Positions 10,605-36,744 of a stretch of 64,000 bases of DNA are shown here, in pieces. Below the pieces are notes generated by a model. The model was given only the letters and a program-made list of their open reading frames with translations. It made no database searches and was not told the DNA's origin. The DNA is from Pseudanabaena sp. PCC 7367. GTDB lineage: Bacteria > Cyanobacteriota > Cyanobacteriia > Pseudanabaenales > Pseudanabaenaceae. Every line of letters starts with the position of its first letter. Positions within the stretch are counted from its first letter, which is position 1. The stretch covers positions 3,916,001-3,980,000 of the forward strand of contig NC_019701.1 in NCBI RefSeq assembly GCF_000317065.1, in the 5' to 3' direction. The position numbers were made by a program, and so were the translations under genes.

Positions 10605-11327
10605 ATGGCAATTATTTTTGGTACCGCAGGCTTTGATGTTCTGCTCGATCAGCCTGGTGAAAATTCATTTTTGTTTGGTTTTGCTGGTAATGATTCGATC
10701 TATGGCATTGATGGTGATGACACGATCAATGGCAATCAAAACAACGATTCGATTTTAGGGGGCGAAGGGGATGATTTTGCCGTGGGGGGCAAAGATGCCG
10801 ATACGCTGGATGGTGAGGAAGGAAATGATTTTTTGAACGGCAATCTGGGCAGCGATCTGGTGCTGGGTGGGGATGGCAATGATACCCTGCATGGCGGCAA
10901 AGATAGCGATATTCTGATAGGTGGTGGCAGCAATGATTTGGTGAATGGCGATCGCGGTGGCGACTTCCTCACTGGCGTGGATCTCAGCTTCTCTGCTCCA
11001 GGGCTAGGCGAAATTGATACCCTGACCGGAGGATCGGGCGAAGATACTTTTGTACTGGGCGATCGGCTCAGGATTTACTACAACGATGGAATGACTGCCG
11101 CATTTGGGGTGGCGGTGATTACTGACTTCAATCCCCTGGATGATTTTATTCAACTCTCTGGCAGCGGCACCTATTCGATCGCGGCGGCTCCCACTGGATA
11201 TGTGGGCAGTGCGATCTACTATCACAACACCAGTGCTGGTTTTGGCCCCAATAGTGATGTGATTGCCATATTTGAGGATTTCTTCACCCTCAGTCTCAGC
11301 GCCGATTACATTATCCAGGTGACCTAA
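10605..11327 (+). CDS. RTX (haemolysin-type) calcium-binding repeat protein
   Basis: Residues about 22-120 are a run of glycine/aspartate nonapeptides of the GGxGxDxUx type (such as GGEGDDFAVGGKDADTL and GGDGNDTLHGGKDSDIL), which form calcium-binding parallel beta rolls. Residues 135-240 form the usual C-terminal segment with DTLTGGSGEDTFVLGD, VITDFNPLDDFIQLSG and a terminal SADYIIQVT, the C-terminal region that carries the type I secretion signal in this family. There is no N-terminal signal peptide and no enzyme domain, so it is a pure RTX module, probably exported or surface-layer associated. No type I secretion genes lie nearby. ATG 10605 follows a GGAG-like site. Confidence 0.85.
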   Translation: MAIIFGTAGFDVLLDQPGENSFLFGFAGNDSIYGIDGDDTINGNQNNDSILGGEGDDFAVGGKDADTLDGEEGNDFLNGNLGSDLVLGGDGNDTLHGGKDSDILIGGGSNDLVNGDRGGDFLTGVDLSFSAPGLGEIDTLTGGSGEDTFVLGDRLRIYYNDGMTAAFGVAVITDFNPLDDFIQLSGSGTYSIAAAPTGYVGSAIYYHNTSAGFGPNSDVIAIFEDFFTLSLSADYIIQVT

Positions 11328-31040: not shown

Positions 31041-31727
31041 ATGCGGCATGTTTCCTTAGCGATCGCTAGTTTATTCCTAGCCGCGATCGGCGGAGCCTGT
31101 AGTAATAATTCAACTAGTAATAGTGCGACTAATGCGGCCAATTCAAACCTTGAGCAGGCCACCGAGCAAACAAGCACCCAATCAGGGGCAACCTATTTTG
31201 AAGAACCAGTGCTGGTATTAAACCAGACCTCGCCACAAGCCCTGGGCATTGAGCGATCCAGATCGCCCCGATCGCCAGGACTAACCACGCCCACCGACAA
31301 AAAACAACGCCAGGCCGAGCTAGACGTGCGTCTTGACTATCCCAGCGAACTCAGCCGCGATCCCTTTGCTACCGCTCCTGGCTTAACCCGATTACCCGAA
31401 GTAGTGATCCCAGACCCGATCGATATTCCAGTCCCTCCACCGCCAGCCAGACCACCCCAACCAAGCCCCAGCAATCGCACCGCCTATACCCCACCGCCCC
31501 AGGCCACAGCGCAGGTAATCGAAGTTTCGGGTGTGGTGGAAATTGGTGGCAGACGCTATGCGATCGTGACCATTCCTGGTGATATTAGCTCGCGGTATGT
31601 GACTGTCGGCCAGCGGATCGCCAGTGGCCAGGTATTGGTCAAGCGGATCGAAATGAGTACCTATCCGCGCGTGATTTTGCAGCAAAATGGCCGTGAATAT
31701 GCCCACTCGGTCAAGTTGGGAATTTGA
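31041..31727 (+). CDS. PilP/GspC-like lipoprotein, paralogue 1 of 3
   Basis: A signal peptide ends in the lipobox IGGAC with Cys20. A long Ser/Asn/Thr/Gln-rich linker leads to SRDPFATAPG (RDPF at 106-109), a Pro-rich stretch, and a C-terminal beta domain at about 158-226: VIEVSGVVEIGGRRYAIVTIPG, YVTVGQRIASGQVLVKRIE and RVILQQNGREY. RDPF plus such a small beta domain is the layout of the type IV pilus inner-membrane lipoprotein PilP and of GspC. The likeness is by eye and not proven. Two paralogues follow on the same strand. ATG 31041 follows GGAGCAAGGCA; a 348-base gap precedes it. Confidence 0.75.
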   Translation: MRHVSLAIASLFLAAIGGACSNNSTSNSATNAANSNLEQATEQTSTQSGATYFEEPVLVLNQTSPQALGIERSRSPRSPGLTTPTDKKQRQAELDVRLDYPSELSRDPFATAPGLTRLPEVVIPDPIDIPVPPPPARPPQPSPSNRTAYTPPPQATAQVIEVSGVVEIGGRRYAIVTIPGDISSRYVTVGQRIASGQVLVKRIEMSTYPRVILQQNGREYAHSVKLGI

Positions 31728-32078
31728 TTGTGGTTGATTGAAATTCAAAGAACTTGTTCTAAGCTGTGTTTGGCTAAGTTGTTTTACACATATTTAGACA
31801 TGCTAATTTTAGGCAAAAAATTCAAATTGTCAATCGCCAACTTTTAGTGACATATTCTGGCAAAATCAGATCTTGATTCAGGCAATACCTGGCTAGACCA
31901 GGCAAAATGCGCCAACGTCAGGGAAAGAGCGCAATAGAAAATTAATTGCCAAATTCGCCCAGAAGACGTAAAATCTTATCGCATTAGAGAAGAGATAAGT
32001 ATGTATGGCTAGTGGTTTTGCCAAACATAACTTTTGATTGGTGGTTATGACATATATAAATGTCATTGGAGGAGTTCA
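31728..32078. other. Intergenic between paralogues 1 and 2
   Basis: No gene is seen in these 351 bases. GGAGGAG at 32068-32074 is a strong ribosome-binding site for the ATG at 32079. The region is long enough for a separate promoter, so the three paralogues may be transcribed independently. Confidence 0.4.
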
Positions 32079-32891
32079 ATGCGAATAATTTATCTAGCTG
32101 GCATTTCAGCTATTATTGCGGTGGCAACGGTTGCCTGTGGCGATCGTCCGCCTAAAAGCTCTACGGATTTCTTTGCCGCAACTGATCAGCCAGACTTAGT
32201 TGATCCCAGTTCCGCTACAACCATATCCGGATCAGCTAATACTAGCGTCGGTAATTCTAGAAATACTAAAACAGATTCAGAAACCTCAGAGACCTCAGAA
32301 ACCTTTGATCAGGCCTTCCTGGGTGACCTGACTGAAACAACTTCTAAGCAAGAGCGTAAGCAGCTACTTAGCGATCGCCAAAAAATGGTCGATCAACTTA
32401 CCAGCCAGCCAAAACAGTCGGAATCAGCAACACAATCAGAGGATAGCGAAGTTTTCACCACCACTACAGTAGTTGAGCGTGATCCCTTTGCACCAATTCC
32501 CGGCAGTGTTAAACCATTGGCCGAAGTATTGGCGGAAACCAGGCCGCAACTGCCACAACTATCTGTCAATCAGCCGCCCGCAGTGCCGATTGCGCCACCG
32601 ATCGCGCCGATCGTGGTCGATCCAGTGGCCGAAGCCAGAGCCGTCCAGGTAACTGGTGTGGTGGAGCTTAATGATGGCAAATATGCGATCGTGTCTGTGC
32701 CTGGTGAAAGTAGCACCCGCTATGTCAAAGAAGGACAAATGTTAGCATCCCAAATTTTAGTCAAACGGATCGAGCTTTCCAGTCCACCGGCAGTGATCCT
32801 CCAACAAAAAGGCATTGAGGTGCGCCATAGCGTGGGACAATTCCTGAGTCAGATCTACCAAAACCAAGTAGTAAGCCAGGATCTTGGTTAG
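32079..32891 (+). CDS. PilP/GspC-like lipoprotein, paralogue 2 of 3
   Basis: Signal peptide with lipobox TVAC, Cys20 exactly as in both paralogues. The linker (about 21-130) is Ser/Thr/Gln-rich and includes a repeated ETSETSETF. VERDPFAPIPG puts RDPF at 134-137, followed by a Pro-rich segment and the C-terminal domain at about 188-253: AVQVTGVVELNDGKYAIVSVPGE, YVKEGQMLASQILVKRIE and AVILQQKGIEVRHSVG. I prefer ATG 32079 because of the strong GGAGGAG upstream; an in-frame ATG at 32034 would ruin the signal peptide. A short tail (FLSQIYQNQVV) follows the domain, absent from the others. Confidence 0.75.
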   Translation: MRIIYLAGISAIIAVATVACGDRPPKSSTDFFAATDQPDLVDPSSATTISGSANTSVGNSRNTKTDSETSETSETFDQAFLGDLTETTSKQERKQLLSDRQKMVDQLTSQPKQSESATQSEDSEVFTTTTVVERDPFAPIPGSVKPLAEVLAETRPQLPQLSVNQPPAVPIAPPIAPIVVDPVAEARAVQVTGVVELNDGKYAIVSVPGESSTRYVKEGQMLASQILVKRIELSSPPAVILQQKGIEVRHSVGQFLSQIYQNQVVSQDLG

Positions 32892-33036
32892 CTGGTTAAC
32901 TAAACGATTTACTTGGGCGATCGATTGGATTGATGAATCAGAATATGCGAAAGATTTAAATGGATTAGAATTGAAGTAATGGCGTGAGGGTGGCTCTAGC
33001 AGAGATCTAATAAACAGGTATAACAGGAGTAGAGCA

Positions 33037-33798
33037 ATGCGTACTTTTTATCTAGCAGGAACGATGGCGGTGTTAACCGCACTATTAGGGGCATGTACCA
33101 CAAATTCGATCGAAAATGCCGGTGACCAGCTTTCCATGAGCGATCCCCTGGCTCCAACCGAAGAAACCCCAGCCGAAGAAGTTCCTGCCGCCACCGCCCC
33201 CACCGCAACGGAGCAGCCATTATTCACCCGACCAGTAGTAAGCGGGGTGCAGCTAATTCCACCGACGGATAAACAAGAAGTCCAACAGGAACTAAACCAA
33301 AAAATTAGTGGTAATTCCACCGTACGCGATCCTTTCCTGACTATTCCTGGTACTGTGCCTTTGCCAGAGCTACCCCAGGCCAATCCAACTCCACCTCCAA
33401 ATGTGCTGAGACCAAGCGGTCCTACAGTAACGGTTGCAGAACCAACTTTGCCTATCCCCACAGAAGCCAGAGCGGTTGAAGTTAGCGGTGTGATTGAAAT
33501 AGGCGGTGAGCAATATGCGATTATTGCTGCCCCCAATGAACCCACCACCAGATATGTGAGAGCTGGACAAAGGGTGGCGGGGAATCAAGTTTTGGTAAAA
33601 CGGATTGTAACGTTTGGTACGCCCGTGGTGATCCTAGAGCAGTATGGCGTGGAAGTGACCAGGCCGATCGGCGAAAAGGTTGCAGCAGCGCCAAATAGCA
33701 ATTCACCGACCAATGCCCCGAATGCGCCTCAAACCAATCGACCAGCACCTGGGGTAATCTTACCGCCACCAACTGCTACCTCACCGTTGCTGCCATAG
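33037..33798 (+). CDS. PilP/GspC-like lipoprotein, paralogue 3 of 3
   Basis: Lipobox LLGAC with Cys20. The linker is Glu/Pro/Ala/Thr-rich. VRDPFLTIPG puts RDPF at 97-100, then Pro-rich spacer and the C-terminal domain at about 146-212: AVEVSGVIEIGGEQYAIIAAPNE, YVRAGQRVAGNQVLVKRIV and PVVILEQYGVEVTRPIG. A 40-residue Asn/Pro-rich extension follows. All three copies have ATGCG at the start and a conserved domain over a divergent linker, which points to old duplication. A terminator-like hairpin closes the cluster. Confidence 0.75.
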   Translation: MRTFYLAGTMAVLTALLGACTTNSIENAGDQLSMSDPLAPTEETPAEEVPAATAPTATEQPLFTRPVVSGVQLIPPTDKQEVQQELNQKISGNSTVRDPFLTIPGTVPLPELPQANPTPPPNVLRPSGPTVTVAEPTLPIPTEARAVEVSGVIEIGGEQYAIIAAPNEPTTRYVRAGQRVAGNQVLVKRIVTFGTPVVILEQYGVEVTRPIGEKVAAAPNSNSPTNAPNAPQTNRPAPGVILPPPTATSPLLP

Positions 33799-34219: not shown

Positions 34220-34753
34220 TTACTTACCCTCTGTCTTTTTGGGTGCCATCAGCATAGTCATATTACGGCCTTCACGCTTGGGAGCCTGTTGGATATCCGC
34301 TACTTCCATCAGATCGTTCGCCATCCGATTGAGTAGATCTTCAGCCAAATTGACATGCTGAATTTCTCGACCCCGAAACATCACCGTAGCTTTGACTTTG
34401 TCGCCACCTTTTAAAAACCGCGAGGCATGATTGATCCGCACTTGATAGTCATGCTCATCGATCTTGTAGCGCATCTTCACTTCCTTGAGATCAGCGGTAT
34501 GCTGTTTTTTACGGGCTTCGCGCTCTTTTTTCTCTTTCTCAAACTTGTACTTGCCGTAATCCATGATCCGGCAAACTGGTGGATCAGCTTTATCGCTGAC
34601 CAGCACTAAATCCAGTTCCCGCTCATCTGCAATCGTCATCGCTTCCTGGGGCGGCATAATGCCTAGTTGCTCCCCATCCGCACTAACTACACGAATTTGG
34701 GGAAACTTGATGCGTTCATTGATGGTAGGGAGATCTCGCTTGGATTTCTTCAT
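34220..34753 (-). CDS. infC: Translation initiation factor IF-3
   Basis: IF-3 keeps ribosomal subunits apart and checks initiator tRNA pairing. The 177-residue protein has the N-domain [23 protein letters not shown]...ALV-type start, the basic linker [19 protein letters not shown] and the C-domain [25 protein letters not shown] and [12 protein letters not shown]. Start ATG 34753, not the rare AUU used for autoregulation in Escherichia coli. rpmI and rplT are not adjacent. The 845 bases upstream carry no gene. Confidence 0.97.
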
Positions 34754-35598
34754 GCAGATTGTATTTGTATAACTCCTGGCTAGTCTACTAAGTTAAATAA
34801 ATTGAATTTATGTCGCTGACAACTACTACTATTACTACATCAAACCTAATTTCGTCTCAATCGATCGCAATTTTAAATAATTCACGCGCAGTTAAGTTAA
34901 GCTCTGACGATCGACTAACTAATTGAATTAACCAAATTGAGTTTGGATTAAGCGATCGCTCCTCCTCCTCCTCCTACATGACTGTTACATATAGAGTGAC
35001 ATGAGTTTGAGCGAATTCGAGCCGTTTGAGCAAAATATTAAAGCTTGTAGTTATCAGCTAGTTTGTGGTGTGATCGCGCAATTCATCGCATCGCTGCATC
35101 AAAATGCGTTAGAAAATAGATTAGATCAACAAATCAAACTGAAATAAACAGTAATGGGAGCAGACGCAATTAGAGCTAAAGTGCTTACCGATTAACTATC
35201 TTGATTAGAATGGCAAGCTCAACACCTATGAGTCCAGCTCAGATTGAACTATTCTACACATTTTGTCCTATAAATTTTGGCGATGGCAATGGATTAATAT
35301 TCTCAACTGTCCTTGCAGCCAACATAATTGATTAAAGATGAATATCAATTACCAATTACTGCTCTAGGAAACATGGCGATCGCACTCGATCAAATAACCA
35401 CCCCTCACCTGGCACCAAGTTTAGTTAAGCTTAACCAATAACCAAAGTTCAGCGCATATTCGATCAGACCAAATAATCAAACCGAATAATTTGTGAGCCT
35501 AAATCTATGGCTGCTAGGCTTGACTAAATAACTTGACATAAATTTGACTTCAGACTAATAACTTGACCTAAATTTGACTTCATCCTAAGCATTCCAAC
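34754..35598. other. 845-base gene-free stretch between aroB and infC
   Basis: No coding frame, tRNA or other known RNA is recognisable. It contains a (CCT)5 microsatellite at 34961-34975 and a 30-bp imperfect tandem repeat at 35528-35587. On the infC-sense strand the microsatellite reads as GGAGG repeats, resembling Shine-Dalgarno sequence, but no start codon lies in range. A long infC leader or a small RNA is possible. Confidence 0.4.
35528..35587. repeat. 30-bp imperfect tandem repeat
   Basis: Two copies (35528-35557, 35558-35587) of a unit beginning ATAACTTGAC and containing AAATTTGACTTCA, with three mismatches. It lies just beyond the aroB stop. Confidence 0.75.
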
Positions 35599-36744
35599 TT
35601 ATGGTGTCAAGCTTTGTTGTAAAACTTTGATGACCAGTTCTGCGCTGACCCGATCGCTGATTTGGGTATGGCCGATCGCGGTGGGCAAAATAAACCGAAC
35701 CTTGCCATGTTCCACCTTCTTATCATGACTCAATGCGGTCACAATTTGATTCAAGTCAGTATTAGGTGGCAACTTGTGGGGTAATTTGGCCTTAGTAATT
35801 AATTCTAGCTGGCGATCTTGACTCTCTTGATCCCATAAGCCCATCGCCACGGCGATCGCCCCAGCGGCAATCATCCCCAACGCCACGGCCTCGCCATGAT
35901 TAAATAGCCGATAATTGGTCACCATTTCGATCGCATGACCGACGGTATGGCCATAATTGAGGATCGCCCTGAGGCCACCTTCTTTTTCATCCTTGGCGAC
36001 AACTTCGGCCTTGGCTTTGGCGCAGCGATATAAAATTGTGTCCAGCAAATTTGCATCCACATACCGAAACTGATCGAGGCGCTTGGCTTGGCTCAAAATC
36101 TCGAATAATTCAGCATCCCAGATCACACCATATTTAATTACCTCAGCGATCGCGGCGCGAAATTCTCGGCTCGGCAAGGTACTTAGCACCTGGGGATCAA
36201 TCCACACCAGACGGGGTTGATAGAATGCGCCGATCAGGTTTTTGCCCTGGGGATGATTTACGCCGGTTTTTCCACCAATGGCGGCATCGACCATTGCTAG
36301 CAGACTGGTGGGTACTTGCACAAAATTGATACCCCGCAACCAGGTAGCGGCAGCAAACCCAGCCATATCACCAATTACACCACCCCCCAGCGCCACGATC
36401 GTGGAGTTGCGCTCTAGATGATTGGCATAGGCAGCATCGTGAATTTTATAGAGCCATTTGGTGGTTTTATAACGTTCTCCGGCCGGAATCACAAAATGAT
36501 TGGCGGCAAATCCAGCTTGTGCCAGGGAGCTTAACACCCGATCGCCATAGTAATCAAGAATCTTGGGATTCGATACCACCAGGACTTTGTTGCTTTTTTG
36601 ACCTAGCTGCAATTGCGCCATTTGCGATCCCAGGTCAGCCAGGATGCCAGGGGCGATCGTAATCTGGTAGTTCTTATTCTTGGTGGCAGCGGGCTCAAAT
36701 TCAACATTAATGATCGCGGGTTGACTGGACATTGAACTGGGCAT
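35599..36744 (-). CDS. aroB: 3-dehydroquinate synthase
   Basis: AroB converts DAHP to 3-dehydroquinate, the second step of the shikimate pathway, using NAD and a divalent metal. The 381-residue protein has the NAD-binding [66 protein letters not shown] with the metal-ligand Glu, and [12 protein letters not shown] and [10 protein letters not shown] with metal-ligand His residues. Start ATG 36744, or ATG 36732 (MSSQPAI). Confidence 0.97.

Follow-up and report, generated by a model that had tools for sequence, protein, structure and literature searches.

What are the three consecutive lipoprotein genes in this genome, and why are there three of them? The genes lie close together in the window, the 64,000-nucleotide stretch of Pseudanabaena sp. 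PCC 7367 DNA that was analysed as a whole. We consider it very probable that they are tandem paralogues and encode cyanobacterial PilP, the lipoprotein found in the type IVa pilus alignment complex. Three lines of evidence tie the family to PilP and support this reading, namely its fold, an apparently ancestral position within a pilMNOPQ operon, and its joint presence and loss with PilM and the secretin.

Architecture and fold of the three lipoproteins

The first-pass annotation had described three tandem lipoprotein genes on the plus strand, and all three open reading frames are present (Table 1). Each encodes a variable linker, an RDPF-x3-PG motif, a Pro-rich spacer and a C-terminal domain. 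The motif is indeed invariant, and the consensus that had been claimed for a homologous C-terminal domain matches all three proteins. With copy 2 starting at ATG 32079, the lipobox cysteine falls at residue 20 of every copy. We took this start rather than a longer one at TTG 32034 because a ribosome-binding site, GGAGGAG, precedes it at 32068; the counterpart in copy 3 is GGAGTAG. Identity to copy 1 is 36% for copy 2 and 38% for copy 3, and each of the three proteins retains 22 of the 26 positions whose conservation across the family reaches at least 85%. Searches of the window proteins against Pfam and NCBIfam returned nothing over the cut-off, and scans for promoters and terminators between the copies gave counts not above chance. 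Elsewhere in the window, an open reading frame with RTX-like GGxGxDxL repeats was seen at 10605-11327 on the plus strand.

Table 1. Coordinates in the window of the three predicted lipoprotein genes, their domains and motifs, and the flanking genes
Feature	Position	Strand	Remarks
Copy 1, predicted PilP-like lipoprotein, 228 aa	31041..31727	+	Cys20 lipobox, linker, RDPFATAPG, Pro-rich spacer, C-terminal HR/PilP domain
Copy 2, predicted PilP-like lipoprotein, 270 aa	32079..32891	+	Longest linker of the three
Copy 3, predicted PilP-like lipoprotein, 253 aa	33037..33798	+	Pro-rich C-terminal tail beyond the domain
Copy 1 HR/PilP domain	31479..31724	+	
Copy 2 HR/PilP domain	32601..32849	+	
Copy 3 HR/PilP domain	33436..33684	+	
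Copy 1 RDPF-x3-PG motif, RDPFATAPG	31356..31382	+	Repeat D2
Copy 2 RDPF-x3-PG motif, RDPFAPIPG	32478..32504	+	Repeat D2
Copy 3 RDPF-x3-PG motif, RDPFLTIPG	33325..33351	+	Repeats D1/D2
infC and aroB, flanking genes outside the system	34220..36744	-	Mark the locus in two single-copy relatives

A comparison of the predicted domain structure with PilP and the HR domain of GspC had been set beforehand as a possible refutation of the PilP-like reading, and the fold proved to be that of PilP and GspC-HR. In an AlphaFold model of full-length copy 3, built on a 41-sequence alignment, the domain consists of a helix and six strands, with blocks at pLDDT 95-98. Its top ten matches in the PDB by fold are without exception PilP or GspC-HR structures, headed by 3oss (GspC) and 2y4y (PilP), and the PilPs among the matches include those of P. 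aeruginosa, N. meningitidis and the M. xanthus pilus model. The copy 1 domain was modelled alone (pLDDT 90.8) and gave target-normalised Foldseek TM-scores of 0.80 to GspC 3oss and 0.60 to PilP 2y4y_B; the M. xanthus pilus model, 2ivw PilP and 6hcg PulC followed, and the best five matches were all of the PilP/GspC class. The Foldseek E-values were only 0.01-0.4, as expected with a domain of about 70 residues, so that the weight rests on the consistency of the match list.

The Pfam model for PilP, PF04351, gave no significant match to the window proteins, and matched 6 of 58 family domain sequences (best E 0.0055). When the window genome was searched with it together with control genomes including S. 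elongatus, no control matched. Since PF04351 was silent in every control, it does not reach cyanobacterial PilP, and its silence was not counted as exclusion. Comparison by hhalign with two-sequence PilP or GspC alignments from PDB excerpts, which hold too few sequences, was not significant, and a sequence search of the PDB with the window family matched only low-complexity lipoprotein N-termini. We accepted remote full-length profile matches only if gene position or the domain profile concurred; several weak matches within loci L093-L118 were rejected as spurious, being of the same low-complexity N-terminal type.

Homologues between pilO and pilQ

Based on the family profile, we found a match (E 2e-10) in a genome of the same phylum outside class Cyanobacteriia, G038, in which the gene order is pilN-pilO-X-pilQ and X carries GRVDPF, a Pro-rich spacer and the domain. 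A protein X with GRxDPF is encoded between pilO and pilQ in 11 further genomes from several families outside Cyanobacteriia, or 12 with G038. Profile-profile alignment (hhalign) of the window family with X gave a probability of 97.4 and an E-value of 1.2e-11 over the full length, and 95.4 and 1.7e-8 with the domain only. In the window genome, the pilMNOQ operon lies at C2:41000-50500 (L119) with no gene intervening between pilO and pilQ, and a family gene was likewise absent from this slot in the other cyanobacterial loci examined. Taken together, these arrangements suggest that the ancestral place of the family gene was between pilO and pilQ, and that in Cyanobacteriia it often came to stand beside sigF.

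We also observed lipoproteins that carry GRxxPF, have a beta-like C-terminus and are encoded immediately upstream of a secretin gene (L092:1453-2178, L094:1153-1962 and L099:1420-2139). Their genomes are small, lie outside Cyanobacteriia, probably belong to gut Gastranaerophilales, and are without a strong PilM match.

The X proteins match PDB chains of GspC (8e-5) and, weakly, of PilP, while Pfam T2SSC matches 8 of the 12 (best E 8.6e-7). It could be argued from this that the window proteins are of the GspC type and belong to a type II secretion system (T2SS), having the same fold and clamping the T2SS secretin, since their best fold match is the GspC HR domain, not PilP, and T2SSC fits the pil-operon homologues better than Pfam PilP does. 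However, the single secretin match of the genome sits in the pilMNOQ operon, a T2SS operon context was not encountered, and the homologues elsewhere belong to pilMNO-X-pilQ operons. A role in type II secretion is scarcely credible against this background.

Distribution of the family and earlier assignment of PilP

In other cyanobacteria, a pattern search located the family at 55 loci (best E 5e-19), and 136 of 386 Cyanobacteriota genomes contain it at E <= 0.001; because the family recurs in this way, the three-gene architecture is no chance pattern. The RDPF-type motif is nearly invariant across the family. One or three transmembrane (TM) segments replace the lipobox in five members (L031, L035, L156, L157 and L159), which agrees with an inner-membrane anchor. 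At the N-termini of L031, L035 and L156, there are about three such segments in place of the lipoprotein signal, and the L156 gene is still immediately 3' of sigF. The order psbO-sigF-family gene, on one strand, was found in many other cyanobacteria. In Synechocystis, SigF governs piliation as well as pilA, and in Nostoc it governs pilA (PMC7690835).

Two further features of these loci were observed. A small conserved protein of about 85-105 aa with the motif FPxLPLAVYREIAAHL is often encoded immediately 3' of the family gene (L178:2620-2871, and the genes labelled c6 of L016, L018, L048 and L050). The family member at L155:6188-7330 has a fused extra C-terminal domain of about 110 aa.

Presence of the family in genomes without a secretin had been named as a second possible refutation. 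Among 186 Cyanobacteriia genomes compared, every one of the 122 with a confident family member has both PilM and a secretin, and the association with PilM gave a Fisher p of 1.6e-44, a statistic that ignores kinship. The association with the secretin is statistically weaker because many picocyanobacteria have a secretin and no confident family member. Divergent picocyanobacterial lipoproteins with GRxDPF were seen at L137:4655-5257, L091:1264-1854 and L098:1474-2037 and are candidates for PilP.

Four genomes with PilM (G177, G332, G022 and G051) were initially without a family member. The domain profile recovered a divergent copy in G177 and G332, raising the count to 124 of 126 PilM genomes. 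In G022, pilMNOQ is intact and the family gene survives only as a truncated remnant of 90 codons after sigF, so perhaps not every genome strictly needs the gene; in G051, neither psbO nor a family gene was found. Joint loss was seen in three complete genomes of about 3 Mb from one genus (G147, G183 and G268), which are without PilM, secretin and family member, while their congener G143 has all three. In G268 an apparent decayed remnant of the family gene is found next to its usual neighbour. Since psbO is broken in all three (L171-L175), these organisms look like non-photosynthetic endosymbionts.

The first-pass annotation had also stated that cyanobacterial pilMNOQ operons are without a recognised pilP, and this view is outdated. 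A 2015 review reported that cyanobacterial PilP had not been found (PMC4390875). Later reviews attribute a PilP homologue unlinked to pilMNOQ to Taton et al. 2020 (PMC7690835; PMC12288463), and the word pilP is absent from that paper's main text in the version consulted (Nat Commun 11:1688). According to Simkovsky et al. 2022, PilP is Synpcc7942_0168, a prediction without experimental confirmation, and the mutant forms strong biofilms, as do pilQ and sigF mutants (PMC9260433). One of the genomes searched, G036, has plasmid contigs that are 100% identical to NZ_CP143528 and NZ_CP143529 and is therefore S. elongatus PCC 11801. The strongest family member of this genome (E 9e-13) stands immediately 5' of glnN, the type III glutamine synthetase gene, and glnN of PCC 7942 is Synpcc7942_0169; this points by synteny to the same gene as Synpcc7942_0168. 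Judged by that gene order, the window family is the known, predicted cyanobacterial PilP family. The "missing PilP" is thus no new discovery, the identity of the family having already been proposed in the literature. For slr1565, considered as the name of the gene in Synechocystis, the literature offered no support.

S. elongatus PCC 11801 also encodes a second protein whose C-terminal domain is HR/T2SSC-like, at L189:3357-4229 on the minus strand, beside mnmG/gidA. It is TM-anchored, has no RDPF, matches Pfam T2SSC at E 0.03 and Y4YQ_C at 4e-5, and is possibly another cyanobacterial PilP/GspC-like protein.

Instead of the pilus, a PilP-fold clamp spanning the envelope might serve some other partner, such as a SigF-regulated export system. 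In many cyanobacteria the gene adjoins sigF and not pilMNOQ, SigF also affects the exoproteome (PMC7690835), and several genomes have dispersed extra copies. Nevertheless, we regard such a partner as very unlikely in view of the unbroken co-occurrence with PilM and the secretin (122/122), the pil-operon position in sister lineages, the joint loss in reduced genomes and the resemblance of the S. elongatus biofilm phenotype to that of pilQ (PMC9260433).

Three copies beside one pilus machine

The family is mostly single-copy, although additional copies are dispersed in several genomes, and no second adjacent set of family genes was found among the matches listed. Within the GTDB family of the window genome, three other genomes have one copy each. 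In two of these relatives (L145 and L146), that copy adjoins infC and aroB, whose identities are 79% and 66%, and so the triplication is probably local to the window genome. In the domain tree, which has few columns, copies 1 and 2 are sisters with support of 97/85, the branch of copy 3 is long, and neither copy 3 nor the relatives from the GTDB family received a supported placement. The proposal that these are the missing, amplified PilP subunits therefore stands in part: PilP-like they appear to be, from the fold, the homologues in the pilO-pilQ slot and the co-occurrence, but "the missing" subunits they are not, as the family is normally single-copy and its triplication here looks local.

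PilP and GspC proteins combine an inner-membrane anchor with a linker on PilN/PilO and an HR domain on the N0 domain of PilQ, so that platform and secretin are aligned across the periplasm. By analogy, each copy would be lipid-anchored in the inner membrane, and its disordered linker would dock through the RDPF stretch onto the PilN/PilO dimer. The long Pro-rich spacer may then span the thick cyanobacterial peptidoglycan, and the HR domain would grip the PilQ secretin at its N-terminal periplasmic domain. Such a clamp would hold the pilus platform and the secretin in line across the periplasm. Long linkers have been suggested to suit thick peptidoglycan (PMC12288463).

With one secretin match and one pilMNOQ operon in the window genome, the three copies must share one machine, substitute for each other or be partly redundant. 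Most simply, they are alternative or mixed subunits of one machine. It is possible, though we doubt it, that only one copy works as PilP, next to two duplicates that are redundant or in decay. The single copy found in the three relatives from the GTDB family, demonstrably at the same locus in two of them, would fit this, as would the divergence of the copies (36-38% identity) and the long branch of copy 3. However, the frames, lipobox and RDPF-x3-PG motif are intact in all three, 22 of 26 conserved positions are kept in each, and clear ribosome-binding sites precede copies 2 and 3. More speculatively, and rather improbably in our own estimate, one pilus scaffold may be served by three interchangeable PilP clamps of different reach and tail, the swapping of subunits joining PilNO to PilQ for pili of different function or for different states of the cell wall.

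PilP was long the missing piece of the cyanobacterial pilus machine. What is new here is the link to an ancestral operon, the test of the fold, and the local tandem triplication beside one pilMNOQ operon and one secretin. Three PilP copies side by side are an unusual arrangement and indicate that the clamp subunit can multiply by itself, so that knocking out one or all three copies could reveal any specialisation.

Among known systems, the GspC HR domain (PF11356; PDB 3oss, 6hcg) is the closest structural match of the window domain; GspC itself is TM-anchored and belongs to the T2SS, whereas the window proteins carry a lipobox and occur in the context of type IV pili. With the proteobacterial type IVa PilP (PF04351; PDB 2y4y, 2lc4, 2ivw, 4av2) they share the lipid anchor, the disordered linker and the fold of the small beta domain, but they fall below Pfam detection, have longer linkers and are encoded outside the pil operon. 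The RDPF-type motif is degenerate in N. meningitidis PilP. E. coli HofP (b3392, PF10748) has RDPF-x-PP (MRDPFKPP) before a small domain, and its gene lies between hofO and hofQ in hofMNOPQ; in contrast to the window proteins, it has 134 aa, no lipobox and a very short linker. The cyanobacterial PilP Synpcc7942_0168 is, like the window proteins, a lipoprotein with GRxDPF and an HR domain, unlinked to pilMNOQ. It is present in single copy and adjoins glnN, whereas the window holds three tandem copies with differing linkers and tails that adjoin infC-aroB.
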